Shown: positions 1,997-23,328 of the stretch, in pieces
Numbering within the stretch: position 1 is the first letter of the stretch
Layout of the letters: every line of letters begins with the position of its first letter
Source: Plectonema radiosum NIES-515
GTDB lineage: Bacteria; Cyanobacteriota; Cyanobacteriia; Cyanobacteriales; Nostocaceae
DNA: 32,184 nucleotides
Assembly (NCBI RefSeq): GCF_025753815.1
Contig: NZ_JAOWRF010000003.1
Coordinates: forward strand, 1-32,184
Direction: 5' to 3'
The notes under the pieces: model-generated
What the model saw: only the letters and a program-made list of their open reading frames with translations
Told to the model about the DNA's origin: nothing
Databases searched by the model: none
Position numbers and translations under genes: made by a program

Positions 1997-2090
1997 TAGA
2001 TACCTGGTATAAAAAACGTAGAGACGTAGCATTGCTACGTCTCTACAAAGGTTTCGGGCAACGCATAATTAATTTTTACCAGATGTCTAT
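1997..2090. mobile_element. MITE-like element, TAGACATCTGG family (copy 2), upstream of aroF
   Basis: About 94 bp with imperfect terminal inverted repeats: TAGATACCTGGTATAAAA on the left and TAGACATCTGGTAAAAAT read from the right. The core palindrome is at 2018-2046 (GTAGAGACG TAGCATTGCTA CGTCTCTAC, 29 bp, nearly perfect). It sits 24 bases upstream of the aroF start codon, so it lies in that gene's leader or promoter region. Confidence 0.7.
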
Positions 2091-2196
2091 TGTTATTATC
2101 TATATTGACTTAACAAAATATATTAAAAAATATAACGCTCAGATTGTTTTGCTACTGTATTTTGGGTTTCAAAAAAAATATAAATTTTTAATTAGC

Positions 2197-2241
2197 AATG
2201 TTGAAGTTATAAAAATTATCTAAAATTTTAACTTCAACATT
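2197..2241 (-). terminator. Long AT-rich hairpin after the PAM68-family gene (possible terminator)
   Basis: AATGTTGAAGTTA (2197-2209) pairs with TAACTTCAACATT (2229-2241), a 13-bp perfect stem around an AT-rich loop. On the minus strand it follows the rpsO/PAM68 pair by about 50 bases. There is no immediate T-run, so termination is only a possibility. Otherwise 2091-2292 is AT-rich DNA with no recognisable gene. Confidence 0.45.
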
Positions 2242-2292
2242 CACTTTAAAATTTACTCAACAGTACAAAATCTAACACCTGAGCGCTGATAA

Positions 2293-2757
2293 TTATACGT
2301 TTTTTTGACGAGTTTCCCGCCAAACTTCGACCATTCGTGCCCAATTGGTGCTGAACTCACTTAAGCCCACCAAACCCCCAACTCTCTCTTCGTCCCAAGA
2401 GGCAGATAGAACGCCATAAGTTATTCCTATGACTCCTAAACCAAATAATCCCATGTTGACTAGTAACACGGCGATCGCAGGTAGCTTAATTTGGGCGTAC
2501 ACAGCTAGCAGATAGCTGGCAACTAAGATGGCAATACCGAAAAATGTTGGCACACCACAGAAGCCAGCTACCCGTCTGATCATGCGCTGACTGACAACCT
2601 TGGGGATTGCCATTTCTTCTTTGGTGTAAGTTCGCTTTTGAGCAACCTGTTTCTCAGCTTCTTGCTTAATAATCGGCTTATTTTGAGATTTAGGCGATTT
2701 TTGGCGTTTTTTCGGTTCAAAGGGCAATTTACTGCGTTCGGATTCTTCAGCAGACAT
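2293..2757 (-). CDS. PAM68 family protein (DUF3464), photosystem II assembly
   Basis: 154 residues. Residues 1-60 are very basic and hydrophilic (KKRQKSPKSQNK). Two transmembrane helices follow at about 67-88 (GVPTFFGIAILVASYLLAVYA) and 94-116 (LPAIAVLLVNMGLFGLGV), then a short tail with EERVGGLVG and FSTNWARM. This plan matches the PAM68/Sll0933 family, thylakoid proteins known to help early photosystem II assembly and D1/CP47 handling. The gene starts 12 bases after the rpsO stop, so the two are almost certainly cotranscribed. Pairing of rpsO with this family is common in cyanobacteria. The start at 2757 is the only good ATG. Family assignment is confident; the precise role is taken from homologues. 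Confidence 0.88.
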   Translation of the reverse strand: MSAEESERSKLPFEPKKRQKSPKSQNKPIIKQEAEKQVAQKRTYTKEEMAIPKVVSQRMIRRVAGFCGVPTFFGIAILVASYLLAVYAQIKLPAIAVLLVNMGLFGLGVIGITYGVLSASWDEERVGGLVGLSEFSTNWARMVEVWRETRQKNV

Positions 2758-2769
2758 AAGCGTTAGTCC

Positions 2770-3039
2770 TTATCCACGAATACCGAGGCGACCAATTAAA
2801 GCTTGATACTTTTCGCGGCTGTCTTCTAGAATGTAAGCTAGAAGGCGCTTGCGCTGACCGATGAGCTTTAACAATCCCCTGCGAGAAGAATGGTCTTTCT
2901 TGTTTGCTTGGAGATGCAAGCTGAGACGGTTGATCCGCTCGGTGAGCATGGCAACTTGGACATCGGCGGAGCCTGTATCGGTTTCGTGAACTTGATAATT
3001 GACGATGATCTCTTGTTTGCGCTCTTGGGTTAAAGCCAT
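2770..3039 (-). CDS. rpsO: 30S ribosomal protein S15
   Basis: 89 residues, the standard length. The sequence is typical throughout: [16 protein letters not shown] at the start, then [19 protein letters not shown], the [19 protein letters not shown] block that contacts 16S rRNA, and [20 protein letters not shown]. It binds the central domain of 16S rRNA early in small-subunit assembly. It is the first gene of a two-gene unit with the PAM68-family gene. In many bacteria S15 represses its own mRNA through a leader structure; no such structure is obvious in the AT-rich DNA upstream of 3039. Confidence 0.97.
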
Positions 3040-3315
3040 GATGGATTCTATTTATATGTGCAGCAGTTTCCCATAATATCACAGCCCTCACGTTGTATGT
3101 GGAATCACCTTTACTGCTACGCCTTGAGGTAGATACGCATAAATAAATTAAAGATAGTATTGTATTATTTGGCGTTTTAACACTAAAGCCCTAACTACAA
3201 GCCAGAAAGCATCTTTTGTTTAATAATATGTACGTTTAGCAACAGTTTAATAACTGATCAAAAAGGTGGAAGAATGATATAAAGTTAACAAAAAAACACC
3301 TTAATAAATAGCTAC

Positions 3316-4737
3316 ATGAAACCACTTAAGGGCACGCGAAAGCGGGGATTTGTGCTGAGTACTATTGGTTTGAAGCGCTTACAGGGCAAGATTTTGGCTG
3401 TGGAAATAGCAGAGAACAACGGCATCCGCTTTACTCTCGACGATCTGGGCGATCGCATGAATATTTCTAGCAAAACACTCTCGCGATTGTGGTCTTTGAA
3501 TGTAGGTGTAGATCAAAAAACCCTAAGATTGTGCTTTAGCAGTTTTAACTTGGAATTACGCAATGAAGATTATGCAATACTAAGTGAAGCAAACGAGACT
3601 GAAACTTCTGATGCGCTCTCGTTGAGTTTAGACGTAAAAGAAGTAAATGCGCCTCAGCATTTATCCGTAAACTCTCACCGTGACCAACTTGAAAATATCT
3701 GGTCATACCCGGATGGACCGGTACCTTTGGATTCTCCCTTCTATATCGAACGTCCCCCCATTGAAGAACTGGTTTATCGGGAAATAACTCAACCTGGCTG
3801 TGTGATTCGGATTCGCGGACCAAGAGAGATGGGTAAGAGTTCTCTCGTGCAGAGGCTGTTAGCATTTGCAGAAGCACAAGGATATCGCACGGTAAACCTC
3901 AATTGCAACCAAATCGATTCTGACTGTCTGACTGACTTAAACAAGCTGTTGCGTTGTATTTGCTTTTCAATTGCAACAGAATTAGGCATTGACCCCAACC
4001 TAAATGACATCTGGGATGAGGAAGTTGGTTGTAAGTTGAATTGTAGCTTTTACTTGCAGAACTATTTGCTCAAGCAGATTCAAAGTCCAGTGGTTTTGGT
4101 GTTAAACGAAGTTGACCGCTTTTTTGAATATCCTCACATTGCTAGTGACTTCTTTGCCTTGTTGCGTTCGTGGTGCGAGTCAGCACGACAAAATCTTAAT
4201 TGGCAGAAGCTCAAGCTAGTGGTGGTTTACTCTACAGAAGATTATGCCACCCTGGATATCAACCGATCGCCGTTTAATATCGGACTACCTATCCGTCTAA
4301 GCGAATTTACTCAGCAACAGGTAGAAGATTTAGCCCAACGGCACGGGCTAGACTGGAATAGTGGCAAAGAATCCGCTCAACTGATGTCACTTGTCGGGGG
4401 TCATCCAGCGCTGATTCGGATTGCTCTGTATTATATTTGCTCTCAGGTAATTACTTTAGAAGATTTAATGCAGGAGGTAGTTGACAACGGTGGTATCTAC
4501 CGCTATCATTTATGGCGACAGTGGGCAAAACTGCAAGAAAAACCCAGTCTGGCAAAGATATATGAGAAAGTTGTGACGACTGAGGAAAGTATTTCTCTTA
4601 ATCCTATAGAGGCTTATAAGCTCGACAGTATGGGATTGATTTGCTTTGAGGGCGATCGCATTCTACCGCGTTGCGAACTCTACCGCGCTTATTTTGCAAA
4701 ACAAAAGCGCGACAATTGTCTAATAATCGACGTTTAA
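3316..4737 (+). CDS. AAA-like (AAA_35) ATPase with N-terminal helix-turn-helix-like domain
   Basis: 473 residues. Residues 7-90 (KRGFVLSTIGLKRLQ ... LDDLGDRMNISSKTLSRLW ... LCFSSFNLEL) match the small helical N-terminal domain found on many cyanobacterial STAND-like proteins and vWA-MoxR-associated proteins. Residues 130-460 are an AAA_35-type P-loop domain, with Walker A GPREMGKSS (168-176) and Walker B VVLVLNEVDRFF (259-270). In Walker B the usual Asp before Glu is Asn264. The sensor-like stretch VVYSTEDYATLDINRSPFN is present. There is no WD40, TPR or protease domain, so the protein is a sensor/ATPase without a visible effector. Cytoplasmic. Decayed 3' ends of related genes lie at 6544 and 7192. 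The biological role is unknown; such proteins are suspected in signalling or defence. Confidence 0.85.
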   Translation: MKPLKGTRKRGFVLSTIGLKRLQGKILAVEIAENNGIRFTLDDLGDRMNISSKTLSRLWSLNVGVDQKTLRLCFSSFNLELRNEDYAILSEANETETSDALSLSLDVKEVNAPQHLSVNSHRDQLENIWSYPDGPVPLDSPFYIERPPIEELVYREITQPGCVIRIRGPREMGKSSLVQRLLAFAEAQGYRTVNLNCNQIDSDCLTDLNKLLRCICFSIATELGIDPNLNDIWDEEVGCKLNCSFYLQNYLLKQIQSPVVLVLNEVDRFFEYPHIASDFFALLRSWCESARQNLNWQKLKLVVVYSTEDYATLDINRSPFNIGLPIRLSEFTQQQVEDLAQRHGLDWNSGKESAQLMSLVGGHPALIRIALYYICSQVITLEDLMQEVVDNGGIYRYHLWRQWAKLQEKPSLAKIYEKVVTTEESISLNPIEAYKLDSMGLICFEGDRILPRCELYRAYFAKQKRDNCLIIDV

Positions 4738-5041
4738 AACCACTCTTAATTAAGAGAATAATCGGCTTACAAGAGTTCAGTCATCCCATTAAAGTTTTTA
4801 CCAAATTATCTGTGCTGTCAAAAAATCACCCTAGAAGACTTGCGACAAAAAGCGACCTCAACCAATACACTTGGTGATAAGATTTTATCCTTCCTAGCCC
4901 TCCTTAAAAACGAGGGAATTAAGCCCCCTTTTTAATTCTGTTGCGGGAATCTTCTGCAACCCGACATCACTAACAAAAACCGTATTGCGATCTAAACAAA
5001 TTAAAGGTCGGGGTTTTCCCAACCTGCTTTATAGGGGTTAC
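4738..5041. other. Intergenic region between convergent genes
   Basis: No gene is supported. There is a short stem CCCTC/GAGGG around 4898-4915 followed by a pyrimidine-rich CCCCCTTTTT stretch at about 4923-4932, which could end transcription of the ATPase gene. On the minus strand, 4930-5010 holds about 29 open codons (…LDRNTVFVSDVGLQKIP…) without a start; this may be a decayed coding remnant but I cannot assign it. Confidence 0.4.
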
Positions 5042-6520
5042 CTATTTGTATATCAATCGTCCTTCGATATAGCTGTTAAGAAGTTGATTAGAGGTAAAGT
5101 ATTCTTCAAGCACATTCTGAACAGATGTTGCGACTACCTTCGGTTGAGCTAATTTTGTCAAATCTTCAGTTATTATGCCTAAACTTTTGACTGAATTTTT
5201 GTAATGATATTCCTGAAGACAGATAGTGTATTCATTATGTGCTTCTACAGGTTTTCCATTAATGGTCAAAGATTCAAGCTTTCTTTCAGCATCATTGTAA
5301 ACTGCCTGAATACCTTTGCTTATCTGAAAACACTGACTATTATCCGGGTTTCTGTTTTCTGCTCTCATAATATGTGAGAATATCTTGGTGAGCTGTTCAC
5401 CAGTAACTCTTACCCGATAAACGGGTCCGTCATAAGGGTAAATTTTTTTCAGGTCACTTAATGTAACTAGAGGACCCAATTCTGTTCCACGTATTGAACT
5501 ACTTCCCAGAAAAACTACATCAGACATAACTGATTGAGCCAAAATATCAGTCATTAAGTTACCCAATTCAGTTTCTATTTCACGCCAAGGATGTGTTAAT
5601 TTACGTGTTAATCGACAAATCAGCCGATTATACTTGCGATCTACCTCTTCCTTGAAAGTATTAATAAACTTTTCGAGTTCAACATCTGGCTGTGCAAGAT
5701 TATTATCCACAGGGATGAGTTGCCACTTCCATTCCACAATGCTGTTAGTATCGTCATCCACTGTAATATCGAAACGTCCAATTTGGTCTGTACCAACCCC
5801 TGCTTGTGTAATTAGAATGTTGTTGACTTGGGCTGGTTGTTCTAAAATAGTATGGGAGTGTCCGCCAATTATCATATCCACACCCCAGATCGGGTCTAGC
5901 ATTGCAGCTAGTTTTTTATCCTCTTCAAAACCGATGTGCGTCATGAGAATTGTCAGGTCAATGTCATCATTTTTGTAGGTGTCGCAAATCTTCCCTACTT
6001 CGGCTGCGGCATCTTCAAGACTGACAAATGTGCCAATACTTTTGTCAAGCTTTAATGAGTTAAGAATTTCTTCAGTCACAATACCAATAAACATGATATC
6101 AAATCCATCTACATTCAGGATAATGTAGGGATTCATCAATCGTTTATTGTACTTTTTAATATACAAGTTGGCATTGACGATGGGAAAAGTTGCCATTTTT
6201 TCCAATAAAAGTAAGTGAGGAAACCCATAATCTAATTCGTGGTTCCCCAGAGTCACTACGTCAGGAGCCAGGTAATTCATGATTTCTATGGTTGAAATAC
6301 CTTTGTATTCCGTATCAATCATAGACCCCTGAACCATATCACCAGAAATGACAAAAAGCGTGTTTTTCTCTTCCGAGCGCACCTTATTTAAATATCCTGA
6401 AAGAAGCGAAAGTCCACCAATAAGATGACCCTCGGCACCCTTACTTTCTGCCAGAAAGTCTCCATGCATATCATTGGAATGTAAAATCGTAATTTTTTTA
6501 AACCGCTCAGTCGTCATCAT
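5042..6520 (-). CDS. 5'-nucleotidase/metallophosphatase family protein (cytoplasmic form)
   Basis: 492 residues. The N-terminal calcineurin-like metallophosphatase domain (about 8-270) has ITILHSNDMHGDF (Asp17, His19), ISGDMVQGS (Asp61), LGNHELDYG (Asn93, His94), a MTHIGFEED His and the GGHSHT motif, giving the full two-metal ligand set. The C-terminal 5'-nucleotidase domain (about 300-480) has NLMTDIL, DVVFLGSSSIRG and YDGPVYRVRVTGEQL. The family hydrolyses nucleoside monophosphates, UDP-sugars or cyclic nucleotides. Unlike most members it has no signal peptide, so it is predicted to be intracellular. The sequence resembles Firmicutes-type members in my judgement, and together with the low-GC codon use and flanking AAA-gene debris this suggests acquisition by transfer. 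The substrate cannot be told from sequence. Confidence 0.88.
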   Translation of the reverse strand: MMTTERFKKITILHSNDMHGDFLAESKGAEGHLIGGLSLLSGYLNKVRSEEKNTLFVISGDMVQGSMIDTEYKGISTIEIMNYLAPDVVTLGNHELDYGFPHLLLLEKMATFPIVNANLYIKKYNKRLMNPYIILNVDGFDIMFIGIVTEEILNSLKLDKSIGTFVSLEDAAAEVGKICDTYKNDDIDLTILMTHIGFEEDKKLAAMLDPIWGVDMIIGGHSHTILEQPAQVNNILITQAGVGTDQIGRFDITVDDDTNSIVEWKWQLIPVDNNLAQPDVELEKFINTFKEEVDRKYNRLICRLTRKLTHPWREIETELGNLMTDILAQSVMSDVVFLGSSSIRGTELGPLVTLSDLKKIYPYDGPVYRVRVTGEQLTKIFSHIMRAENRNPDNSQCFQISKGIQAVYNDAERKLESLTINGKPVEAHNEYTICLQEYHYKNSVKSLGIITEDLTKLAQPKVVATSVQNVLEEYFTSNQLLNSYIEGRLIYK

Positions 6521-6543
6521 CGTGTTTTAGCTCGAATAATTAA

Positions 6544-6595: not shown

Positions 6596-6603
6596 TTTAA
6601 CAA

Positions 6604-6698
6604 TAAATCATCTGTTGTCCTAGATGTAGAGACGCGATAAATCGTCGTCTCTACAAGGGTTCGGGTAAGCCATAATTAATTTCCACACCTATGTCTCA
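6604..6698. mobile_element. MITE-like element, TAGACATCTGG family (copy 3, degenerate ends)
   Basis: Contains the family blocks in order: the core palindrome at 6626-6654 (GTAGAGACG CGATAAATCG TCGTCTCTAC, imperfect), AGGGTTCGGGTAAGCC and ATAATTAATTTCCA. The end TGAGACATAGGTGTGG (read inward from 6698) matches the family terminus; the left end is weak. The right end overlaps a separate 9-bp hairpin, TTCCACACC/GGTGTGGAA, at 6681-6708. Confidence 0.5.
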
Positions 6699-8413: not shown

Positions 8414-8427
8414 TCTACATTTTGTAG

Positions 8428-11500: not shown

Positions 11501-12223
11501 ATATGGCATCGCGATCGCTCTTCACCGCAGATTCTTAAAGGACATCAAGCGGAGGTGTGGCATGTCGCATTTAGTCCCAACGGTCGGCTCGTTGCTTCCG
11601 CTAGTGGCGATAGTACTGCTAAACTGTGGACGCTGGATGGCAAGTTGTTCAGAACCCTTGTGGGACACTCAGCATCAGTATGGAGAGTTGCCTTTAGCCC
11701 TGACAGTAAAATGGTAGCTACTGGAAGTGGGGACAATACCGTTAAGCTGTGGACGCTTGAGGGCAAGTTGCTGAAAACTCTCAAAGGTCACACAGCTGGG
11801 GTTTGGGGAGTTGCGTTTAGTCCAATCCCCCCAACCCCCCTTTTTAAGGGGGGGGAAGGGGGGATCGTTGCTTCTGGCAGCGTGGATAATACTATCAAGC
11901 TTTGGAAACTCGATGGTACGGAACTGACTACCCTGAGAGGACATACCGCAGCCATCAGGGAAATTGCTATCAGCCACGACGGCACAATTCTTGCTTCAGG
12001 AGGTGATGACAACACGCTCATTTTGTGGAATTTGCCGCGAATTCTTCACCTAGATGCACTGACTTATGGTTGTAACCTTGTGCAGGATTATTTGAAAACT
12101 AACACAGCGGTCCAGAAGAGCGATCGCGTTATTTGCAATAATATGAGTCGTGTTAGAAATAACGCGATCGGCTCCTCAAATTTTGGCGTTGCTGAATCGG
12201 GGTATGAAAATAATTTTACATAA
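8558..12223 (+). CDS. AAA-like (AAA_35) ATPase / transmembrane / 14-blade WD40 repeat protein
   Basis: 1221 residues. Residues 1-400 are an AAA_35 domain typical of cyanobacterial WD40 proteins: YQVGGSLRTNDPTYIVRQAD, the Walker A-like NSRQMGKSSLL (39-49) and Walker B RIFIFIDEIDSLL (141-153, with the DE pair). A charged helix (about 440-468) and one transmembrane segment (about 470-496, LLVAVCIGLLVSSGLGLGSF) follow. About 14 WD40 repeats then run from 571 to 1162 (GHTASVWGVAFSPDGQ…ASAS.D.TVKLW), enough for two seven-bladed propellers. Blades 8-10 are degenerate. Repeat DNA encodes IPPTPLFKGGEGG at about 1089-1101. The last 13 residues are encoded by a MITE. The usual family ending is near SDRVICNN. 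It is probably a membrane-anchored sensor/scaffold; ligand and partners are unknown. Confidence 0.9.
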   Translation: MRYQVGGSLRTNDPTYIVRQADEKLYTSLKAGDFCYVLNSRQMGKSSLLQRTSYRLVEEGYSCAYLDVTRLGSDNTTPEQWYKGIILSLFYDLNLGEHVNFKNWWDTQAGISPVQKLHLFFEGVLLPKIESDSLRDGKADRIFIFIDEIDSLLSLSFPVNDFFAWIRHCYNQQAHDQNFRRLGFALFGVASPSDLIADKRRTPFNIGTAIELYGFQLHEAKPLLKGLEEVISQPKAVLREIIYWSGGQPFLTQKLCQLIVRTALETSNRKIILPPETAAYWVEQFVLKHIIQHWESQDEPEHLRTIRDRLLFHEHRAGRLLGLYQQVLLWEQTDTQTYGVSTDDSREQTELLLSGLVEKHNGILKIKNPIYQSVFNAQWVIRQLDNLRPYSQTFNAWVASGYKDESRLLRGQALKDTQNWAQGKSLSDLDYQFFAASQECEQRAVQTGLEAARAKEVEARLAQEKKTAKLQRFLLVAVCIGLLVSSGLGLGSFILYRQAIKSESQARTSEIEALVSSSEGLFASNRRLDALIEAIKAKHRLQKLGQPNTNLEPQVENALRQAVYGADEYNRFSGHTAAVLAVDVSPDSSLIASASTDKTIKLIRRDGTEVATLKGHQATVRAVDFSSDGQMLASASEDGTVKLWKRDGELLRTFKGHTASVWGVAFSPDGQFLASASFDRTVKIWKRDGTLLNTFQGYKHGFWGVAFSPDGNIVAATSVDKTVKLWKRDGSDWQDAKLLQTLTGHTAWVIGVAFSPDGQTIASASEDTTVKLWQRDSTDGSYHLDKTLTGHSAGIWGVAFSPDGQTIASASLDKTIKLWNIDGTELRTLRGHSASVWGVSFSPDSSFIASAGAENVVRLWQKENPFQKSLIAHKAGIWSIAITSDSSAIATASHENTAKVWSRQGKLLKTFTESGGAIFEVSFSEDRKLIALRTYDDTIKLKKPDGTLVASYKDPIGKLLAGVLSPDGQAIALANVDKIVQIWHRDRSSPQILKGHQAEVWHVAFSPNGRLVASASGDSTAKLWTLDGKLFRTLVGHSASVWRVAFSPDSKMVATGSGDNTVKLWTLEGKLLKTLKGHTAGVWGVAFSPIPPTPLFKGGEGGIVASGSVDNTIKLWKLDGTELTTLRGHTAAIREIAISHDGTILASGGDDNTLILWNLPRILHLDALTYGCNLVQDYLKTNTAVQKSDRVICNNMSRVRNNAIGSSNFGVAESGYENNFT
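11824..11864. repeat. In-frame C/G-rich palindromic repeat inside a WD40 blade
   Basis: About 41 bp, AATCCCCCCAACCCCCC then TTTTTAAGGGGGGGG and AAGGGGGGAT, an inverted repeat of the CCCCCCTTTTTAAGGGGGG type that is widespread in cyanobacterial genomes. It lies inside the WD40 gene, where the preceding and following blades have SPDG. It keeps the frame and replaces the DG turn with IPPTPLFKGGEGG. Confidence 0.75.
12121..12170. repeat. 14-bp perfect hairpin inside the 3' end of the WD40 gene
   Basis: CGATCGCGTTATTT (12121-12134) pairs perfectly with AAATAACGCGATCG (12157-12170), with a 22-base loop. The pairing extends imperfectly into flanking GAG/CTC. It encodes the residues DRVICNN through NNAIGS of the WD40 protein. 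The right arm begins where homologues usually end, so it may be an inverted copy or an old terminator now read through. Confidence 0.6.
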
Positions 12224-12296
12224 TACTAAAATCCTTGTAGAGACGTTCCGGCGGAACGTCTTTATATCCGGATTCATACATCAATTCAGCAATGCC
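12185..12296. mobile_element. MITE, GGCGTTGCTGA family (copy 1), overlapping the WD40 gene 3' end
   Basis: 112 bp. Terminal inverted repeats are GGCGTTGCTGAATCGGGGTA on the left and GGCATTGCTGAATTGATGTA read from the right. It is flanked by a perfect 8-bp target duplication, CAAATTTT, at 12177-12184 and 12297-12304. The core palindrome (GTAGAGACG TTCCGGCGGAA CGTC) is at 12237-12260. The left end supplies the last 12 codons and the stop of the WD40 gene. Confidence 0.85.
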
Positions 12297-12324
12297 CAAA
12301 TTTTTAGTCTAAATTCGGACTTCG

Positions 12325-12352
12325 CAGAGACGTTCCGCCGGAACGTCTCTAC
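12325..12352. repeat. Stand-alone core palindrome (GAGACGTTCC type)
   Basis: CAGAGACGTTCCGCC followed by GGAACGTCTCTAC, a near-perfect palindrome identical in type to the cores within the neighbouring MITEs but without the GGCGTTGCTGA ends. It lies between copies 1 and 2. Together these elements fill most of 12224-12583, which holds no gene. Confidence 0.75.
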
Positions 12353-12387: not shown

Positions 12388-12522
12388 GGCGTTGCTGATT
12401 TCAAATATGAATTCTAAATTTTGGGGTTTGATTCTAACATTAAAACCCTGATTGTAGAGACGTTCCGGCGGAACGTCTATGAGCGTTGAATTAGTATTTT
12501 CATATTAAAATTCAGCAACGCC
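12388..12522. mobile_element. MITE, GGCGTTGCTGA family (copy 2)
   Basis: 135 bp. Terminal inverted repeats are GGCGTTGCTGATTTCAAATA on the left and GGCGTTGCTGAATTTTAATA read from the right. A perfect 8-bp target duplication, GCAAAATC, flanks it at 12380-12387 and 12523-12530. The core palindrome is at 12454-12477. It is nearly identical along its length to the copy at 14652-14786. No coding capacity. Confidence 0.9.
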
Positions 12523-14340: not shown

Positions 14341-14385
14341 TATAATGTCCGCTTAATTAACATTAATAGAAACATTGCAACCTTC
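14341..14385. repeat. Half-element related to the ATGTCCG family
   Basis: TATAATGTCCGCTTAATTAA then CATTAATAGAAACATTGCAA resembles the right end of the element at 23230-23328 and the upstream half at about 19901-19945. It leads straight into the tandem palindrome array. No matching second end was found nearby. Confidence 0.45.
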
Positions 14386-14577
14386 GTAGAGACGTAGCAC
14401 TGCTACGTCTCTACAATATATGTGATTTGTGGGACATGATACAGCAGATTGCGTTGTGATTAAATACACGTAGAGACGTAGCACTGCTACGTCTCTACAA
14501 TATATGTGATTTGTGGGACATGATACAGCAGATTGCGTTGTGATTAAATACACGTAGAGACGTAGCACTGCTACGTC
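14386..14577. repeat. 84-bp tandem repeat, 2.3 copies, each beginning with the core palindrome
   Basis: Units start at 14386, 14470 and 14554, exactly 84 bases apart. Each starts with the palindrome GTAGAGACG TAGCACTGCTA CGTCTCTAC. The spacer (AATATATGTGATTTGTGGGA, then CATGATACAGCAGATTGCG) is identical in the two full copies. It is a recent tandem duplication upstream of the GH13 gene. An open frame across it is an artefact of the repeat. Confidence 0.9.
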
Positions 14578-14651
14578 TTTGAGCGGGTTTTGGATTTTAC
14601 GCAGTACCTTCTAAGGAGTGAAATCTGCTGTATAAGATCAACAAATTGACA

Positions 14652-14786
14652 GGCGTTGCTGATTTTAAATATGAATTCTAAATTTTTTGGTTTGATTTTA
14701 ACATTAAAACCCTTATTGTAGAGACGTTCCGCCGGAACGTCTATGAGCGTTGAATTAGTATTTTCATATTAAAATTCAGCAACGCC
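14652..14786. mobile_element. MITE, GGCGTTGCTGA family (copy 3)
   Basis: 135 bp. Terminal inverted repeats are GGCGTTGCTGATTTTAAATA on the left and GGCGTTGCTGAATTTTAATA from the right. A perfect 8-bp target duplication, AATTGACA, lies at 14644-14651 and 14787-14794. The core palindrome is at about 14718-14741. It is nearly identical to copy 2, so movement is probably recent. Confidence 0.9.
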
Positions 14787-14832: not shown

Positions 14833-15675
14833 TTAACCAACAGGTACAGAGGCATTCGCCACAGACTTATTATCTAAAATAGGCTTGCGGGTTTTTAAGT
14901 CAAATTTATATCCATTTGGCAAAATGTGCAGCTTGGCTCCGCAAATCGCCAAAGGCTCATCTTTCAAAATGTCGTCAATGTTGCTATGTGTAGCTTCTGA
15001 TTCATCGACGACGGTGACACAACCCTGCCCAATCACTTCAAATTGGTTATCGGTAACAACCATTGCGGTATTCTCATCAATGCCGAATCCCAACACAGCA
15101 GGCTCTATCAGCAAAGCTGAAATTAAGCGTCCCAAGCGTCCGCGCTGTGAGAAATGCTGGTCAATTACCACCCCAGGCAAAAAGCCCATACCGGGTCCCA
15201 TGTCCACGGCGTTAATCCGAGGATTTGTTTCTGAGTCGCCTTCCACAATCATGACATCTGGCATGACAGCGGCTCCAGCGCTTGTGCCACCGATGACAAT
15301 TCCTTCAGCGCAGCGTTTGTGAATTGCGCTATCAAGTTCAGTGTCTTTGAGGATGCTCGTGATCCGCGCTTGATCCCCTCCAGTAAAAAATACGCCTGTA
15401 GCTTTGTCAACTGCTTCTAGCGCTGTGGATGAAGATGCGTCTTCACGGCTTTCGGTGTCAATTATCCTAACATTCTCTGCTCCCAGGCGCTCAAACACTC
15501 TGATGTAATTTTGTCCTACTTCTCTTGGCAGTTCGGTTGCTGCTGTCATAATGACAATTTTGGCTTTGGTGCCACCAGCACGTCGCACAAACTCACGCAG
15601 GATCTGGCAATCGCCTTCTTTGTCTTCTGCACCGCCAATAATCACCAACTGCCGTTTGGTTTCAGTCGCCGCCAT
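14833..15675 (-). CDS. cphB: Cyanophycinase
   Basis: 280 residues. A cytoplasmic serine exopeptidase of family S51 that cuts cyanophycin (multi-L-arginyl-poly-L-aspartate) into beta-Asp-Arg dipeptides. Visible are RQLVIIGGAEDKEGDCQIL (8-26), VFFTGGDQARI (95-105), the nucleophile elbow GGTSAGAAVM with Ser132, and DQHFSQRGRLGRL (His174), then LGFGIDENTAMVV. These agree with the published catalytic layout of cyanobacterial CphB. I chose the ATG at 15675 (MAATETK) because GGAGG lies 5-9 bases upstream. An in-frame ATG at 15720 lacks such a site. The length is typical. It is divergent from the cyanophycin synthetase gene at 16749, with a 67-residue gene between them. The symbol is by homology. Confidence 0.93.
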   Translation of the reverse strand: MAATETKRQLVIIGGAEDKEGDCQILREFVRRAGGTKAKIVIMTAATELPREVGQNYIRVFERLGAENVRIIDTESREDASSSTALEAVDKATGVFFTGGDQARITSILKDTELDSAIHKRCAEGIVIGGTSAGAAVMPDVMIVEGDSETNPRINAVDMGPGMGFLPGVVIDQHFSQRGRLGRLISALLIEPAVLGFGIDENTAMVVTDNQFEVIGQGCVTVVDESEATHSNIDDILKDEPLAICGAKLHILPNGYKFDLKTRKPILDNKSVANASVPVG

Positions 15676-15841
15676 GATGCCTCCGGATCTAAGTCTGTTA
15701 ATTTTAATAAAACACGACAATTTAAACTATAAAAACATCCATATGGTAGATTTAGATACAAAAATTAAAAATGAAATTTAGTAATTTTTCCCGGGAGGCT
15801 GGAAAAAGTTAAGAAATAAAGCTAATAATTTTGCTTTAATC

Positions 15842-16265: not shown

Positions 16266-16357
16266 TAGACATAGACGTGAAAATGAACGATGCGTTACCC
16301 AAACCCCAAGAGACGCTTGGGTATCGCGTCTCTACATTCTTTTCCAACAGAGGTCTA
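16266..16357. mobile_element. MITE-like element, TAGACATCTGG family (copy 4)
   Basis: About 92 bp. The left end is TAGACATAGACGTGAAAATG; the right end read inward is TAGACCTCTGTTGGAAAA. The interior has ATGCGTTACCCAAACCCC. The core palindrome differs: AGAGACGCTTGGGTATC then GCGTCTCTAC. It lies upstream of both the 67-residue gene and cphA2. Confidence 0.6.
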
Positions 16358-16748: not shown

Positions 16749-18659
16749 ATGATTCAAGAAAAAAGCACCGATGCAGTTCGCGTCAATGCGAGAAAAACAG
16801 ATGTTTTCGATATTTTCGGGTTCAAGCATTACATGGGAGCGAATCCCTATTTGGAAACAGGAGCGCTAGTATTTAGTTTTGCGCTGACAGAGTATAATCA
16901 GCCTTTGGCAGTTGAGGACTATGTATCTATTATTGGCGATCGCTACCCCCAGATAAAAGAGCAAACATACGATTCTCATGCCGATTTATTTGCTCGCACC
17001 GTCGCAGAAGTCGGCAAACTGGACATGGGTTTGCACCTCAACCGTTGGAGTGTCAAGTCATATCCGCATTACAAAAAAATCAGCGTGCAATCGCTGCACG
17101 AACGCACCACCAGATCCGTACTTTACTTCGTTTGGGATTGGTTTGAAGCAATTACCCAAAAGGAAGAAGTTGTTTTTGAAGAACAAATGCGATCGCTGCA
17201 AAACAGATTTCGGCAATCTGTTTATGGAGGTCCCACAGTCTACACCTTATTACGCACCGCCTACGAAAAAGGTATTCCTAACTTCTATCTGTGGGAAGAA
17301 GGATTGATGCAATATGGCTACGGCAAAAAACAAGTTCGCGGTGTAGCTACCACATTTCATTGTGATGCTCATCTAGATTCAGACTTCACCACCCGCAAAG
17401 ATGACTGCAAAGCATTTTTAAACACCTTAGGTTTCCCCGTACCTCAAGGTGATATCGTCACTACCGAAAGAGAAGCTTTAGGTGTAGCCAGAGAAATTGG
17501 CTACCCAGTAGCAGTAAAACCCGTTGTCGGTCATAAAGGAATTGGTGTAACCGCTGATGTCCAAGACTCTAGAGAACTAGAATCGGCTTTTGAGCGATCG
17601 CTCCAAGCAATCCCCGAAAACCAGCCAACGCGGATCATCATTGAAAAAAGCATCTCTGGGGCAGATTTTCGCTTGTTGTGCGTCAATGGTAGATTTGTCG
17701 CTGCCACCGAACGGCGTCCCGCATCAATTGTCGGTGATGGACACTCTACCATTAATGAGCTAATTCGCGATGAAAATCGAAAACCCGCTCGTTTGGATAC
17801 ACCAACCTCACCGATGAGCAAAATTCAAAGCGATGAAGCGATGCAACTGTATTTAGACGAACAGCGTTTGTCATTGGACAGCGTAATCGAAAAAGGTCGC
17901 ACAGTTTATCTTCGCAAAGTCGCCAATCTTTCGGCAGGAGGTGTCAGCATCGATGCCACGCGCACAGTTCACGATGACAATATTATATTGGCGCAAGATA
18001 TTGCCCAACACTTTCGATTAACTTGCTTAGGCATTGATGTCATTACCAAAAGTCTTGATAAATCTTGGAAAGAAGGCAACTTTGCCATTTTAGAAATCAA
18101 CGCTGCACCTGGCATTTTAATGCATCTAAATCCTGCTGTTGGTGAAAGCGTTGATGTACCTTCTCATATTTTAGAAACCTTCTTTGAGTCGGGTACAGAT
18201 GCGAGAATACCAATTCTCACCTTTAATAAAATCACAGTTTCTGAACTTCAAGAAACCATTGACCATATTCTTTTGCAACACCCTGATTGGACAATAGGTG
18301 CTGTTTGTCAAAATGCAGTTTTTGTGAATCGCTCGACAAAAATCTTCAACAAAGATTACAACAGCAACGTTTTAAGTTTGTTGCGTAATCCTAAACTTGA
18401 TTTACTCATTGCCCAATACGATGAAGAAACTTGGGAAAATGAAGGCATGTTTTACCAAGGAAGTAACATGGTAGTTCTGGATAATCCTACCGAAACCGAG
18501 ATGATTCTCGCACGAGATGTCTTCGACGGTTCTACTGTGGTGATTAAGAAAGGAGATAGCGTTTCTATTCGTCGCAAAGGTTTGATTGAAGAGTACAACT
18601 TGGGAACAGATGAACCGTTTACACGAGTTTATTTGAAAGAAATCGGCACGATTTTGTAA
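16749..18659 (+). CDS. cphA2: Cyanophycin synthetase 2 (short CphA2-type ligase)
   Basis: 636 residues against about 875-900 for the usual CphA1. An N-terminal domain (1-200) precedes an ATP-grasp domain (about 215-480) with GYPVAVKPVVGHKGIGV (glycine-rich loop), IIEKSISGADFRLLCVNGRF, RRPASIVGDGHSTINELIR and AILEINAAPGILMHLNP (metal ligands). The remaining 150 residues correspond to a cut-down Mur-ligase-like region, and I see no second P-loop (GxxGKT). That is the layout described for CphA2 of nitrogen-fixing cyanobacteria, which rebuilds cyanophycin from beta-Asp-Arg dipeptides using one ATP site. It is divergent from cphB, whose product makes those dipeptides. A truncated CphA1 is the alternative, but the even conservation to the C-terminus argues against it. 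Confidence 0.9.
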   Translation: MIQEKSTDAVRVNARKTDVFDIFGFKHYMGANPYLETGALVFSFALTEYNQPLAVEDYVSIIGDRYPQIKEQTYDSHADLFARTVAEVGKLDMGLHLNRWSVKSYPHYKKISVQSLHERTTRSVLYFVWDWFEAITQKEEVVFEEQMRSLQNRFRQSVYGGPTVYTLLRTAYEKGIPNFYLWEEGLMQYGYGKKQVRGVATTFHCDAHLDSDFTTRKDDCKAFLNTLGFPVPQGDIVTTEREALGVAREIGYPVAVKPVVGHKGIGVTADVQDSRELESAFERSLQAIPENQPTRIIIEKSISGADFRLLCVNGRFVAATERRPASIVGDGHSTINELIRDENRKPARLDTPTSPMSKIQSDEAMQLYLDEQRLSLDSVIEKGRTVYLRKVANLSAGGVSIDATRTVHDDNIILAQDIAQHFRLTCLGIDVITKSLDKSWKEGNFAILEINAAPGILMHLNPAVGESVDVPSHILETFFESGTDARIPILTFNKITVSELQETIDHILLQHPDWTIGAVCQNAVFVNRSTKIFNKDYNSNVLSLLRNPKLDLLIAQYDEETWENEGMFYQGSNMVVLDNPTETEMILARDVFDGSTVVIKKGDSVSIRRKGLIEEYNLGTDEPFTRVYLKEIGTIL

Positions 18660-18692
18660 TTTTTTCAATGTATCGTTGCGGAAAGTAACCGA

Positions 18693-18782
18693 CACCCTAG
18701 AAGGGTGCGGCTACACGTACAAAGCCTGCCTACGCAGGCTTAAGAATTCAAGCCTGGGTCGGCAGGCTTTGTTTGTATAGCC
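18693..18782. repeat. Compound palindromic repeat (CACCCT hairpin plus GCCTGCC/GGCAGGC cruciform)
   Basis: CACCCT-AGA-AGGGTG is at 18693-18707. GGCTACACGTACAAAGCC (from 18709) then pairs imperfectly with GGCTTTGTTTGTATAGCC (ending 18782), giving a stem of about 22 bp. Inside it are two smaller palindromes, GCCTGCCTACGCAGGC and AAGCCTGGGTCGGCAGGCTT. Sequences of this kind (GGCTACAC…AAAGCCTGC) recur in Nostoc-type genomes. It lies between the convergent cphA2 and aroG genes and may also end both transcripts. Confidence 0.75.
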
Positions 18783-18826
18783 CCAGGAATCTCGCGCCTG
18801 TGGGATATTTTTATTCAGGGATCGCT

Positions 18827-19873: not shown

Positions 19874-19900
19874 GAGGAGTATTTCGTAATTTGTGCTAGG

Positions 19901-20145
19901 TATTATATTAACAGTAATAAAAACACTGCAATCATCGTAGAGACGTTCCAATACGGTTCGCTCGTCTGATTTTTCGTGGTGATTTAGGGCATGTAGAGAC
20001 GCGATATATCGCGTCTCTACAAGGTTTTTGGTTTATCGAATTTTCTTATCCGAACCGTATTGAGAGACGTTCCGGCGGAACGTCTCTACAATATGTGCCG
20101 AAACGTCTCTACAATATGTTTGGTAAACCAAACATGACATGAGCA
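19901..20145. mobile_element. Composite repeat cluster upstream of aroG (ATGTCCG-type element interrupted by another MITE)
   Basis: TTAACAGTAATAAAAACACTG and CATCGTAGAGACG at 19908-19945 resemble the half-element at 14341-14394. Near 20115-20140, TTTGGTAAACCAAA with ATGACA may be the other end. Between them lie a MITE (19949-20062), a full core palindrome (20063-20089) and part of another (20101-20113). The outer element is inferred; the inner pieces are clear. Confidence 0.45.
19949..20062. mobile_element. MITE-like element with CAATACGGTTCG ends, inserted into a core palindrome
   Basis: 114 bp bounded by the perfect 12-bp inverted repeat CAATACGGTTCG / CGAACCGTATTG. It is flanked by a 10-bp direct repeat, AGAGACGTTC (19939-19948 and 20063-20072). 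This shows that it entered a GTAGAGACGTTCC palindrome. Inside it carries its own palindrome, GTAGAGACGCGATATATCGC then GTCTCTAC. No coding capacity. A 9-12 bp duplication would fit an IS4-like or similar transposase acting in trans. Confidence 0.8.
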
Positions 20146-20245
20146 TCGAAATTCATATAGATATTTTAAAACAAAACTTATTTACAAATAGCAAATTTAT
20201 ATCTTAATTCATTCACATATAAACAATATTTGTAATATAAATTCA

Positions 20246-20280
20246 CAAAAAAAAGGGGAGAAATATTTCCCCTCTTTTTT
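20246..20280 (-). terminator. Intrinsic terminator after GH13 paralogue 2
   Basis: On the minus strand AGGGGA pairs with TCCCCT (20254-20259 with 20268-20273) and the stem is followed by eight T residues. It lies about 25 bases after the stop of the gene at 20302. The A/T tracts on both sides could let it act in the other direction too. Confidence 0.8.
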
Positions 20281-20301
20281 CCTTATTATCTAACTACCGC
20301 A

Positions 20302-21960
20302 TTATTGCCAAACAAATACTTTCGCTTCGTATGGACCTAAATCAGTCAAAATGCCATCATCACCAGCTTCGACATCATAATTACCTGTCCACTCGTGCCA
20401 TGTACCACCGCTGGGGAAGTTAGGAACATGATAGCCACCCAAAAAGTTTTCGGAGAAATTAGCTACAACAACCACACGAGAACCTTCCCCATTCCAGCGG
20501 CTATAAGCCAGCACCTTTGCCTCTGGATTTTCGTGGATAAAGTCGATATTTTCAGTATAGAGGGCATGATTGTCTTTACGCAGGTTAATTAAGCCTTTAT
20601 AGTAATCAAACAATCCCCGATTTAAGTCATTACCTAACAGTGTCCAATCGATTTTAGCTGACTCTTGACTTTTAGGTTTGTACTCCCCAAATTCTTCACC
20701 CATCCAAATCAAAGGTACACCGACTGCTGTCATGAGAATAGCAACTCCCAATCTAGCTCTTCTAAAAGCTTCCTCATCAAGAATCTCACGATTTCCTAAC
20801 TCGACCATAACATGATTGTGGTCGTGGTTTGTGAGATAATTTACTACATTCGTAGCACCCAAAAAGCCTTGACGCTTGCAGTCAATTACATCTTTGAGGC
20901 GCTCTAAATCAAATGTATCACCGCAGATATGTTCTAAAACACAGTGATAGAAACTATCATGCCAGCATCCATCCATCGGTCCATCAACATTGGTGATGCT
21001 AGGAGTTTCCGGAATGTGTTCGGCAACGTTGTAAAAAGGCTTCATGTTAGCGGTGTTTTTCGCTTCCTGGACAATCCAGTGCATGAAGTCGTAATTAGCA
21101 ATTTGCCGCGCTGCATCGTAACGAATACCATCTGTATGATATTCCTGAATCCAATAACGTACCGTATCACCAATAAATTTCCGAGCAGGATAAGTTTCTA
21201 ACTTCTCGTCGTAATGTTCGTAATTAAACTCTGGTCCCCAGTTATTACCAGGGTCGCGGGGTTCATGATGATACCAATAATCGTGGTCAATTTGTGTTAA
21301 AGGACTAGATGCTTCTGAGTGGTTATAAATACCATCCATAATCACACGAATGCCTCTACCATGACACTCGTCAATTAAACGTTTTAACCCATCTGTAGAA
21401 CCATAACTTGATTCTGTAGCAAAGAAGTGACGAGGATTATATCCCCAACTATAATCACCAGGATATTCCTTGAGTGGCATCAACTCAATAGCATTAATTC
21501 CTAATTCGCATAGATAATCTAATTTCTCAACAACGTGCTTATACTTTCCTCGTGCGTAAGGGTCATCTTCACCACCAGAAAAGTCTGCAATGTGCATTTC
21601 ATAAATAACTAATTCATGGTCAGCCGGTAAAGGTTTATCGTCGTGTTTCCAAACATAGGTATCAACAATTCTTTCACCATCTTTAATCCGCACGATACCG
21701 TTATCTTTACCAGTTGTTTCATCAATATCAGTTGCGTAAGGATCGGTGACTTCTACCCATTGATCTGGTTCAAAAAACCATGATTTTGACTGGACGCGGA
21801 ATTTATATTGATAATCCCCGTCTTCTAATTCAACAGTTGTACGAAAATAACCATCATCGCCTTTTTCCATTGGAATGTCTTTCCAATCTGAAAAAGAAGC
21901 AATTAACGCTGCTTCTTCGTTATATGGTGCAAATAAGTTAAATTCAATTGGCTTTGCCAT
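20302..21960 (-). CDS. GH13 alpha-amylase-family enzyme with N-terminal glycogen-binding-like domain (paralogue 2)
   Basis: 552 residues from the ATG at 21960. Domain order is the same as in the paralogue at 12584: a CBM48-like domain (IEFNLFAPYNEEAALIASFS), then the GH13 barrel with DGIYNHS (209-215), GIRYDAARQI (nucleophile Asp282), YNVAEHIPE (acid/base Glu314) and NYLTNHDHNH (Asp380). The two proteins align almost without gaps and look more than half identical. The frame stays open for 62 more codons upstream (ATG at 22146), but that extension has no counterpart in the paralogue and includes a HIP1 site, so I prefer MAKPIEFN. Cytoplasmic; probably acts on glycogen or malto-oligosaccharides. 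The exact reaction is not determined. It has its own terminator. Confidence 0.87.
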   Translation of the reverse strand: MAKPIEFNLFAPYNEEAALIASFSDWKDIPMEKGDDGYFRTTVELEDGDYQYKFRVQSKSWFFEPDQWVEVTDPYATDIDETTGKDNGIVRIKDGERIVDTYVWKHDDKPLPADHELVIYEMHIADFSGGEDDPYARGKYKHVVEKLDYLCELGINAIELMPLKEYPGDYSWGYNPRHFFATESSYGSTDGLKRLIDECHGRGIRVIMDGIYNHSEASSPLTQIDHDYWYHHEPRDPGNNWGPEFNYEHYDEKLETYPARKFIGDTVRYWIQEYHTDGIRYDAARQIANYDFMHWIVQEAKNTANMKPFYNVAEHIPETPSITNVDGPMDGCWHDSFYHCVLEHICGDTFDLERLKDVIDCKRQGFLGATNVVNYLTNHDHNHVMVELGNREILDEEAFRRARLGVAILMTAVGVPLIWMGEEFGEYKPKSQESAKIDWTLLGNDLNRGLFDYYKGLINLRKDNHALYTENIDFIHENPEAKVLAYSRWNGEGSRVVVVANFSENFLGGYHVPNFPSGGTWHEWTGNYDVEAGDDGILTDLGPYEAKVFVWQ

Positions 21961-22275
21961 AGAAGTATTTGTAGGAAAAAGTGTGATTGTTCGTATTTTC
22001 AGATTTTTTATAAAATTAGCCAATAGCTCTTGCGAAGTAATTACAGAACTAATACCTCTATCTTCAGATATATTGTTGGAGTGGGACTTGATTTTTTTGT
22101 GGCGATCGCATAGCTGTTGATTTAACAAGTTATAGTTACTTGTCAATACTCCTTAGATATATCTCGTAGTGAGCGGTTTACCGCTCATATCAAAGTTTTA
22201 AGGGATAGAGCCGCTAACTACAAAATTCCGTTTATTTATGCCCATCTACTTATTTCAAATTGCTAATCTGCTTAA
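21961..22275. other. Intergenic region upstream of GH13 paralogue 2
   Basis: No separate gene is supported; an in-frame 5' extension of the GH13 gene covers 21961-22146 but looks non-coding. TGAGCGG-TTTA-CCGCTCA at 22170-22187 is a compact 7-bp hairpin and could end the DUF1823-type transcript, though no T-run follows. The GH13 promoter presumably lies here. Confidence 0.5.
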
Positions 22276-22650
22276 TTACTCAGATTTACTGTTATGTTCC
22301 ATGTAGCTTAACAACCAATTTGCCGCTGTTGCCCTGCGAGTTTGTCGAGGTCCAAATTCACCGATTTTATAACCTTTGAAACCTAATTTTTCTTTCAGCA
22401 ATTGTTTATTTTCGGCAGGAATGGAACGAGTCAATTTAACGGTTGGGGGGCGATTTTCAATAAAATTTGGTGGTTCTGGGTACTCATCCCGCCATTCTGC
22501 TAACACTTTGCTAGTGTCCCATTGTCCGGTTGTTTCGTCGTAGCGATAACCTAAGTAGTACCATACCAATTTATTGACAATGGCATCATCAATTTCTTCA
22601 TTAAGAATTGCCCAAATGGTTTCGGTATTAAGTGGAGGCAAGTTAGACAT
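22276..22650 (-). CDS. DUF1823-type conserved cyanobacterial protein
   Basis: 124 residues from MSNLPPL at 22650; a second ATG two codons upstream is possible. The sequence is well conserved in character: ETIWAILNEEIDDAIVNKLV, YLGYRYDETTGQWD, PPNFIENRPPTVKLTRSIP and the C-terminal GYKIGEFGPRQTRRATAANW. I recall this arrangement, especially KLTRSIPAENKQLLKEKLGF, from the DUF1823 family, found in cyanobacteria and plastid-bearing organisms. Function unknown. It is soluble, with no signal or membrane segment. It is divergent from acyP, with about 110 bases between starts, where GTTAGTT is repeated in tandem. It is transcribed separately from the downstream GH13 gene. Confidence 0.75.
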   Translation of the reverse strand: MSNLPPLNTETIWAILNEEIDDAIVNKLVWYYLGYRYDETTGQWDTSKVLAEWRDEYPEPPNFIENRPPTVKLTRSIPAENKQLLKEKLGFKGYKIGEFGPRQTRRATAANWLLSYMEHNSKSE

Positions 22651-22762
22651 AAGCAATTGAAAATTAGTTATTTGTTAGTTGTTAGTTGATGCTTGCGATA
22701 AAAAAGTAGATATTATGTCAATAAAGCAGGTAAACTGGATATCGTCAAGAGTATGTCATAGA

Positions 22763-23065
22763 ATGGAAAGTCTTACAGCATCGCCGCAAATCTGCGCCCA
22801 CGTATTTGTTACCGGGAGAGTTCAAGGAGTAGGTTATCGCTACGCTACTGTTGATACAGCTAGCGAGTTAGGATTGCACGGCTGGGTGCGAAATCTCCCT
22901 GACAATCGCGTGGAAGCCGTCTTTGAGGGAGCGCAGAATGTTGTAGAACAGATGATTCGCTGGTGTCACGAAGGACCACCTGCTGCGATGGTTCAAGATG
23001 TAGTGGTTGAGTATGAGGAGCCGAAAGGATTGCAGGGATTTGAAGTTAGGCGTTTTTCAATGTAA
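22763..23065 (+). CDS. acyP: Acylphosphatase
   Basis: 100 residues. Hydrolyses acyl phosphates such as carbamoyl phosphate and acetyl phosphate in the cytoplasm. The signature HVFVTGRVQGVGYRYAT (13-29) contains the phosphate-binding Arg26, and GWVRNLPDNRVEAVFEG (40-56) contains the catalytic Asn44. The end LQGFEVRRFSM is typical. I chose the ATG at 22763 (MESLTASP) because it gives the family's usual length. The frame is open further upstream to 22679, but those 28 codons are unlike acylphosphatases and overlap the short GTTAGTT repeats. There is no partner gene on this strand; the MITEs at 23130-23328 follow it. Confidence 0.92.
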   Translation: MESLTASPQICAHVFVTGRVQGVGYRYATVDTASELGLHGWVRNLPDNRVEAVFEGAQNVVEQMIRWCHEGPPAAMVQDVVVEYEEPKGLQGFEVRRFSM

Positions 23066-23129
23066 AAACATTTGTATATTTAAACACTAACCTTTTTGCA
23101 GAAATATTTTTTATCTCACTTCTAGACAT

Positions 23130-23215
23130 TAGACATCGACCGCTCTTTTAATATGCGTTATCCAAAACCATTGTAGAGACGTAGCAGTGCTACGTCTCTT
23201 TTTTACCGATATCTA
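23130..23215. mobile_element. MITE-like element, TAGACATCTGG family (copy 5)
   Basis: About 86 bp. The left end is TAGACATCGACCG and the right end read inward is TAGATATCGGTAAAAA. The interior has TATGCGTTATCCAAAACC, then the core palindrome GTAGAGACG TAGCAGTGCTA CGTCTCT at 23173-23199. It lies back to back with another element at 23230. Confidence 0.65.
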
Positions 23216-23229
23216 TTAATTATTCATTA

Positions 23230-23328
23230 TATCATGTCCGGTAAATTACTTAAATGTAAAGACGTTTCATGGTCACGTCTCTACGACGGTAGGTAGATTT
23301 TTATTACTGTTAATTAAACGGACATAAT
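23230..23328. mobile_element. MITE-like element, ATGTCCG family
   Basis: About 99 bp with inverted ends TATCATGTCCGGTAAATTAC (left) and TATTATGTCCGTTTAATTAA (right, read inward). The core at 23255-23283 is a degenerate form, GTAAAGACGTTTCATGG then TCACGTCTCTAC. The right end is one base from the stop codon of the PxcA/PxcL-family gene. Confidence 0.6.

Follow-up and report, generated by a model that had tools for sequence, protein, structure and literature searches.

Hairpin repeats with a constant outer and a variable inner arm in Plectonema radiosum NIES-515 and their association with RAYT transposases

A stretch of 32,184 nt from the genome of the cyanobacterium Plectonema radiosum NIES-515 (Cyanobacteriota; 6.59 Mb in 421 contigs), in its full length termed the window here, contains numerous short hairpins that share the outer arm GTAGAGACG and differ in their inner arms. 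In all likelihood, these hairpins are double-foot repetitive extragenic palindromes (REPs), with GTAG at the 5' and CTAC at the 3' end, of the single-strand transposases known as REP-associated tyrosine transposases (RAYTs, also TnpA_REP), very probably of subclass 2.4 as judged from their features, and would move by means of these enzymes. The hairpins are linked to RAYT genes, carry inner arms that form a signature of the individual RAYT locus, are swapped in their inner part at orthologous sites, occur as insertions within genes and are embedded in miniature inverted-repeat transposable elements (MITEs).

Recurrence of the outer arms had been claimed in a preliminary description of the window and is borne out by counting. 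Allowing up to one mismatch on both strands, GTAGAGACG occurs 28 times in the window, as compared to a mean of 3.2 and a maximum of 7 in 100 dinucleotide shuffles. Five hairpins (at 2018, 6626, 14386, 14470 and 19993) display exact arms on both sides, which is found 0 times in each of 200 shuffles, and ten further window hairpins possess degenerate arms. Throughout the genome, the pattern GTAGAGACG-N4-30-CGTCTCTAC yields 515 matches, 503 of them with N4-14, and the reversed control yields 0 in both cases; inner regions are palindromic in most copies, not in all. The 13 positions listed in the preliminary description do mark hairpins, apart from '20007', which is the middle of the hairpin at 19993-20020. 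The right arm is degenerate at 12237, 12454, 14554, 14718 and 23173 and the left arm at 12324, 20061 and 23256, and the degenerate hairpins at 300-327 and 16307-16335 as well as a half hairpin at 19937 had been overlooked. Moreover, the hairpins at 14386, 14470 and 14554 are not independent, as they are parts of a single 84-bp tandem repeat. Of the supposed complementarity of the inner arms, the three named types TAGCA/TGCTA, TTCC/GGAA and CGATA/TATCG all occur in window hairpins, and the inner parts of 6626 (CGATAAATCGT) and 23256 (TTTCATGGTCA) are only partly paired.

The same description had pointed to a RAYT- or Y1-type transposase as a possible partner, and of the three RAYT genes that were found in Plectonema, two do lie embedded among hairpins. 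RAYT1 (L041:8552-9214) carries CGAAATTTCG hairpins upstream, inside and downstream, and RAYT2 (L385:1183-1773) has hairpins of the TTCC or TGACC/GGAA type within the gene and next to it; in both cases, hairpins on the surrounding DNA are accompanied by one lying in frame within the gene. The nearest hairpin to the third RAYT (G000:C410:20407-20799) is 1.35 kb off. Pfam model PF01797 (Y1_Tnp) scores RAYT1 and RAYT2 at or near its cut-off, and both are found with a RAYT query. A PDB search with RAYT2 gave two matches close to the threshold (E about 0.01) to an unrelated protein, which were disregarded. IS200-type Y1 transposases were considered as main partner and rejected: a hairpin lies within 1.5 kb at 18 of 30 RAYT loci, as compared to only 4 of the 43 loci that the Y1_Tnp searches gave (14 in the Plectonema genome and 29 elsewhere, a few of the latter being RAYT-like themselves).

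A first clue to this association was a RAYT gene with a hairpin on each side in a Rhodothermales genome, found among PF01797 matches which are otherwise mostly IS200-like genes without hairpins. Used as a query, this RAYT gives matches in 44 of 56 genomes chosen for holding hairpins. A total of 72 RAYT loci was assembled, comprising L041, L166, 30 loci from the first round of RAYT queries and 40 from further rounds. With at most one mismatch allowed per arm, a hairpin lies within 1 kb at 36 of these 72 loci, and in all 36 cases it is no more than 300 bp away or inside the gene. Hairpins inside the RAYT gene are present at 25 loci, at 24 of which they lie 13-51 residues past the start of the HUH motif, and the reading frame giving TAG is never used in any of the 25. 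A sequence-blind palindrome search, from which 5 low-scoring loci of the 72 were excluded, likewise recovers the double foot at RAYT loci without recourse to the pattern. Viewed from the hairpin side, a RAYT gene lies within 600 bp of 11 of the 123 hairpins contained in the listed scan loci, and a RAYT is present in 9 of 115 scan loci (at least 115 exist), all nine with a hairpin at this distance.

Of 292 genomes sampled from the cyanobacterial phylum, 54 contain exact-arm copies, and a RAYT (E 1e-10) is encoded in 33 of these 54 hairpin genomes versus 26 of the 238 others (Fisher p 5e-14, with genomes treated as independent of phylogeny). Six genomes of 1.8-3.3 Mb from the same phylum and another class (G017, G081, G100, G110, G240 and G244) hold 2-32 copies; five of them belong to the f38 family, and a RAYT was found in all five. 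In a scan of named genomes, at least 115 stretches with copies were obtained, 80 of them among the matches listed. These include Bacteroidota, Spirochaetales, Chloroflexi, Desulfuromonas, Geobacter and Patescibacteria, and also listed are Zixibacteria, Cloacimonadota, a Planctomycetaceae, a Methylococcales and others, with phyla outside the cyanobacteria assigned from record titles. In 66 non-cyanobacterial copies, 291 of 327 inner pairs are complementary. Searching 43 genomes (of 44 loci), three of them cyanobacterial, gave 1-268 copies in each and no control match in any; four have a single copy, and as many of these genomes are metagenome bins, low-copy cases may be misbinned. Among the bins, G298 (Bacteroidales) contains 244 copies and G326 (Planctomycetaceae) 66, and in the latter the RAYT query gives no match at E 0.001. 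A RAYT with a hairpin at its gene is found in cyanobacteria, Bacteroidota (including Rhodothermales and Balneolia), Geobacter, Spirochaetales, Chloroflexaceae and Uhrbacteria, which makes six phyla by record titles, with NCBI keeping Rhodothermales and Balneolia apart.

The two parts of the hairpin behave differently at these loci. Whereas the 9-bp outer arm is identical at RAYT loci from six phyla or more, inner arms match in 57 of 59 pairs within loci versus 37 of 630 pairs between loci. Two or more hairpins are present at 21 of the 36 loci, and the first four inner bases are uniform at 20 of these. Similarity between the RAYT proteins and similarity between the inner arms are weakly correlated (r 0.22, with 3 of 5000 permutations as high) in 35 of the 36 loci, one having been excluded for length, after removal of the residues encoded by hairpins. 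A second outer arm, GTAGGGG...CCCCTAC, was recognized by eye at nine other RAYT loci from several phyla (L373, L384, L389, L400, L425, L430, L431, L432 and L434), and a pattern count also gave nine, eight of them the same. It occupies the same kinds of site, gene flanks and gene interior, and encloses variable inner arms of its own. Rarer outer-arm forms such as GTAGAGCCG exist at RAYT loci as well.

Pairing of the inner part depends on its length. Among 64 distinct 10-nt inner sequences from the loci examined, 85% of the positions are paired, compared to a shuffle mean of 36% and maximum of 44%, and all four pair types occur at each position. Within Plectonema, all of the seven 10-nt forms are paired, and the twelve 11-nt forms are paired to 67% (shuffles: mean 44%, maximum 62%). 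For the nine distinct 12-nt forms, the mostly complementary inner arms of the preliminary description are not borne out, with 46% of pairs complementary versus 48% in shuffles; by eye, these forms resemble mosaics of two subfamilies. A strand-specific G-U comparison, meant to reveal selection as RNA, was discarded, since the canonical choice of strand favours A-C over G-T.

Differences between inner arms can be followed at orthologous sites. The strict comparison (left flank at least 14 of 20 bases, right flank at least 12 of 20, at least 300 aligned bases; lowest values seen 15 and 14) comprises 11 pairs at 9 independent sites, with L006:13489 and L006:14367, both corresponding to one site in genome G001, counted once, and with 65 further pairs left out that have no hairpin at the site, an unsorted mixture of true absences and poor alignments. 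Three of the nine sites are swapped. At L006:14367, CGAAATTTCG stands against TAGCATTGCTA in G001, with 20 of 20 bases identical in either flank and exact outer arms in both genomes. At L041:8509, it is CGAAATTTCG versus TAGCACTGCTA (flanks 16 and 19 of 20; two mismatches in the right arm of G001), and at L055:13287 TAGCACTGCTA versus TTCCGCCGGAA (flanks 18 and 14 of 20; one mismatch in the right arm of G001), TTCC forms being present at the latter site in G002 and G003, too. The direction of change is unpolarised for L006:14367 and L041:8509. At both, the present genome has the CGAAATTTCG type of RAYT1, which is also the type of the new copy at L005:19939, and L055 does not fit this rule. A looser swap, L007:10396 versus G002, falls outside the strict count. 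The remaining six sites keep their inner type. One of them, in an SMC gene, displays two paired changes in G003, from CGATATATCG to CAATTAATTG, and is the one site that agrees with the paired change invoked in the preliminary description; many small compensating mutations are not the main source of the differences, which represent discrete subfamilies belonging to individual RAYT loci, with whole inner arms exchanged at orthologous sites.

The placement of copies relative to MITEs and genes was determined in genome stretches adding up to 0.80 Mb, the window among them. As previously supposed, the core does sit inside elements with quite different ends, namely centrally in five MITE-like families: A (TAGACATC), B (CCAATACG), C (ACAGCAGAT), D (ATCATGTCC) and E (GGCGTTGCTGA). 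Scored by the terminal motifs of these families, MITE ends enclose 43 of 94 distinct exact-arm copies, compared to 7 of 98 random positions (800 kb) used as control, six of which are due to the family B motif. Repeated flanks are present on both sides in 69 of 98 copies and on neither side in 12. Target duplications are about 3 bp for family A (44 of 50), 10 bp for B (8 of 13) and 8 bp for E (4 of 5), and no clear one is seen for C and D; hence, these MITEs depend on more than one transposase for their movement. Two to five inner-arm classes are found in each family, the commonest overall being TAGC (40 of 94 copies). Terminal inverted repeats together with a target duplication, which define a MITE, are a property of these surrounding elements, not of the 28-30 bp hairpin itself. 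MITE B is inserted into REP hairpins twice at the same point (window 19948-20063; L008:7711), as if the hairpin were a favoured target of this element.

Mobility of the hairpin apart from the MITEs, as also proposed earlier, is supported by the RAYT link as well as by standalone copies, some of which lie in genes. In-frame copies are found in a protein kinase gene (L003:17366) and, twice, in the SMC gene (L011:10752 and L011:12280, 1528 bp apart), where they are kept in relatives and encode segments of the coiled-coil part; the SMC copy is common to the genus, with inner sequences CGATATATCG, CGATTTATCG and CAATTAATTG. Another in-frame copy resides in a tRNA nucleotidyltransferase/poly(A) polymerase gene (L005:19939), in which a 30-nt hairpin of the RAYT1 inner type takes the place of 9 nt in the four relatives G001-G004.

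Taken as a mechanism, the RAYT would recognize the single-stranded form of the hairpin. The outer arm, made up of the GTAG foot and AGACG, would be the part recognized in common, and the inner arms would be matched to the individual RAYT. Both the RAYT and the transposases of the host MITEs would spread copies, the latter by carrying them along. A RAYT acting at a site that holds the hairpin of another subfamily would then replace the inner part with flanks kept, which would result in complementary differences of the whole arm. Since inner arms agree within RAYT loci and whole arms are replaced at orthologous sites, the most plausible reading of the paired inner differences is that they reflect RAYT-specific subfamilies together with exchange. 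That the RAYT itself performs this exchange is an inference. The further-reaching proposal that one REP architecture, spread over many bacterial phyla, is modular, with a near-universal 9-bp outer arm shared by the RAYT group and a 5-bp inner arm as specificity tag which the active transposase overwrites in resident hairpins, in place and site by site, to its own type, is put forward tentatively and is rather unlikely to hold in full. The outer arm may have been conserved as recognition site or through horizontal spread of the RAYTs.

For the swaps, a serious rival, with a probability not far below even, is ordinary recombination or gene conversion between copies, with homology provided by outer arms and MITE flanks. 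Alternatively, a second hairpin would be inserted and a deletion would follow between the repeated arms; in either case, the RAYT would merely provide the seed. Hundreds of copies share the arms, tandem and half hairpins exist, the 84-bp repeat of the window, a single unit in G004, looks like the outcome of recombination between two hairpins, and some 12-nt inner sequences look mosaic. On the other hand, only 9 bp per side are shared within the locus at L006:14367, where all flanking bases are unchanged on both sides, and two of the three strict swaps plus the new tRNA nucleotidyltransferase copy show the RAYT1 type, which the third does not. A role of the hairpin in RNA processing, stability or termination, with pairing selected there, is improbable. 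The high pairing of the 10-nt forms would suit it, yet would be expected to the same degree if the hairpin were read in the form of single-stranded DNA; copies sit in MITEs, in genes and beside RAYTs, and no Rfam family matches the window at gathering thresholds. Least probable of all is that the hairpin is a mere passenger of MITEs without mobility of its own, standalone copies being decayed MITEs. The repeated flanks of most copies and their frequent position between known MITE ends speak for it, whereas the copies without repeated flank on either side, the in-frame 30-nt gene copies without MITE ends, and the different target duplications, thus different transposases, of the MITE families speak against it. 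The 30-nt insertion at L005:19939 and the hairpins surrounding RAYTs in other phyla make it unlikely in particular.

Several observations weigh against the assignment of the hairpins to RAYTs of subclass 2.4 as well. The subclass itself is deduced from features. RAYT1 and RAYT2 score 60 and 67 bits with NF047646, below its cut-off of 80, and the six RAYTs of the genus above this cut-off, among them the third RAYT of the present genome as the only one there, have no hairpin within 500 bp; the link therefore concerns one RAYT group, not all RAYTs. The RAYT set obtained with the Rhodothermales query was drawn from genomes picked for holding hairpins. At 30 cyanobacterial RAYT loci not chosen by hairpins, the GAGACG palindrome is present at 8, or 9 with one mismatch allowed; together with three other GTAG double-foot palindromes and four unrelated ones, a palindrome lies near 16 of these loci, and none was found near the other 14. 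In 21 of the 54 hairpin genomes, no RAYT was detected at E 1e-10. Among the RAYT loci examined, none belongs to the commonest inner class TAGC, and 51 of the 94 copies are in no recognized MITE.

Of the small dispersed repeats (SDRs), Elhai reportedly described in 2008 very small cyanobacterial sequences located in mini-transposons and tandem repeats and exhibiting compensatory changes, and an RNA intermediate is said to have been proposed for them, in contrast to the RAYT found with the present hairpins. SDR5, one of these repeats, is treated in PMC4390886. According to the passages of Quentin (2018; PMC6006769) drawn on here, double-foot REPs go with TnpA_REP subclass 2.4, which abounds in Cyanobacteria and Bacteroidetes and is scattered over some further phyla, and REPs inserted in frame into the transposase gene are unique to this subclass. 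The present hairpins resemble these in the GTAG and CTAC feet, which the search pattern prescribes for the 515 exact-arm copies, in the flanking of the RAYT gene by repeats (REPtron) for two of the genome's RAYTs, not the third, in repeats within the gene, there between HuH and Y and here, in 24 of 72 loci, after HUH, and in a REP family of its own for each RAYT (PMC6006769). Unlike in those passages, the outer arm is here verbatim the same from phylum to phylum, the inner part alone being specific to the RAYT, and MITE cores and swaps at orthologous sites were not met there (PMC6006769). The GTAG-12, -15 and -16 families of filamentous cyanobacteria, as covered by the excerpts of Di Nocera (2013; PMC3733652), are short palindromes tagged with GTAG that display alternative complementary stem residues and, like the present hairpins, also occur inside genes and longer palindromes. 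GTAG is described as unpaired there and is paired here; one of the three may equal the present family, the comparison being by description (PMC3733652). In the sections used of Bertels and Rainey (2011; PMC3116915), REPINs are reported, also for Nostoc punctiforme, as REPs whose movement is ascribed presumptively to a RAYT, with a REP pair forming one hairpin as the unit, in contrast to the single symmetric hairpin here.

Claimed as new are the cross-phylum outer arm, the locus-specific inner arm, the role as MITE core and the inner-arm swaps. No description of them, with outer arm GTAGAGACG, was found in the literature searched, short of the sequences of Elhai 2008 and the consensus figure of the GTAG-REPs, and among the matches listed for texts containing GTAGAGACG (title and abstract), none deals with such repeats; part of the findings may be in print. 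Hundreds of hairpins of one cyanobacterial genome, also those inside unrelated MITEs, are thereby tied to a named transposase class. Constant outer and variable inner arms constitute a natural mutagenesis series across phyla, by which the question of RAYT recognition becomes testable, and counts of orthologous swap sites can be made from strain to strain, which bears on the action of RAYTs on existing REPs.

Within the window, elements are given on the + strand and hairpins without strand. A decayed hairpin at 300..327 lies in a MITE A-like element (258-350), and the exact hairpin at 2018..2046 (inner TAGCATTGCTA; pattern match) within another one, the site lacking a hairpin in G001. A further pattern match with exact arms is 6626..6654 with its partly paired inner part. 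Family E MITEs with GGCGTTGCTGA ends, recognized by terminal motifs, occupy 12185..12296 (hairpin 12237-12265, inner TTCCGGCGGAA, right arm degenerate), where the whole surrounding block is missing in G002 and G003, and 12388..12522 (hairpin 12454-12482, right arm degenerate), with a hairpin of degenerate left arm and inner TTCCGCCGGAA between them at 12324..12352 (pattern match). Adjacent to one another are a family D MITE with ATGTCCG ends at 14342..14440 (terminal motifs), whose exact hairpin at 14386-14414 (inner TAGCACTGCTA) is identical at the corresponding G004 site, and a family C MITE with ACAGCAGATT ends at 14441..14631, enlarged by the 84-bp tandem repeat and carrying hairpins at 14470-14498 and 14554-14582 (right arm degenerate). 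They are followed by a family E MITE at 14652..14786 (hairpin 14718-14746, right arm degenerate), which is not in G004, and a MITE A-like element at 16266..16357 (degenerate hairpin 16307-16335).

The family B MITE with CCAATACGG ends at 19948..20063 (terminal motifs; exact hairpin 19993-20020, inner CGATATATCG) interrupts a family D element in its hairpin, the insertion being accompanied by a 9-bp duplication, AGAGACGTT. The interrupted D hairpin continues at 20061..20089 (left arm degenerate, inner TTCCGGCGGAA), and is intact and without MITE B in G001 and G004. Towards the end of the series, a MITE A-like element at 23130..23215 (hairpin 23173-23201, inner TAGCAGTGCTA, right arm degenerate) is the same in G001, and a family D MITE at 23231..23328 (degenerate hairpin 23256-23284, with the left arm affected) is not present there. 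Outside the repeats, the window encodes a TnpB-like protein (OrfB_IS605, Cas12f1-like TNB) at 30823-31902 (-), and a peptidase S51 protein at 14833-15720 (-) that adjoins an ATP-grasp protein at 16749-18659 (+), the second frame appearing short; this pair presumably represents cyanophycinase and cyanophycin synthetase.

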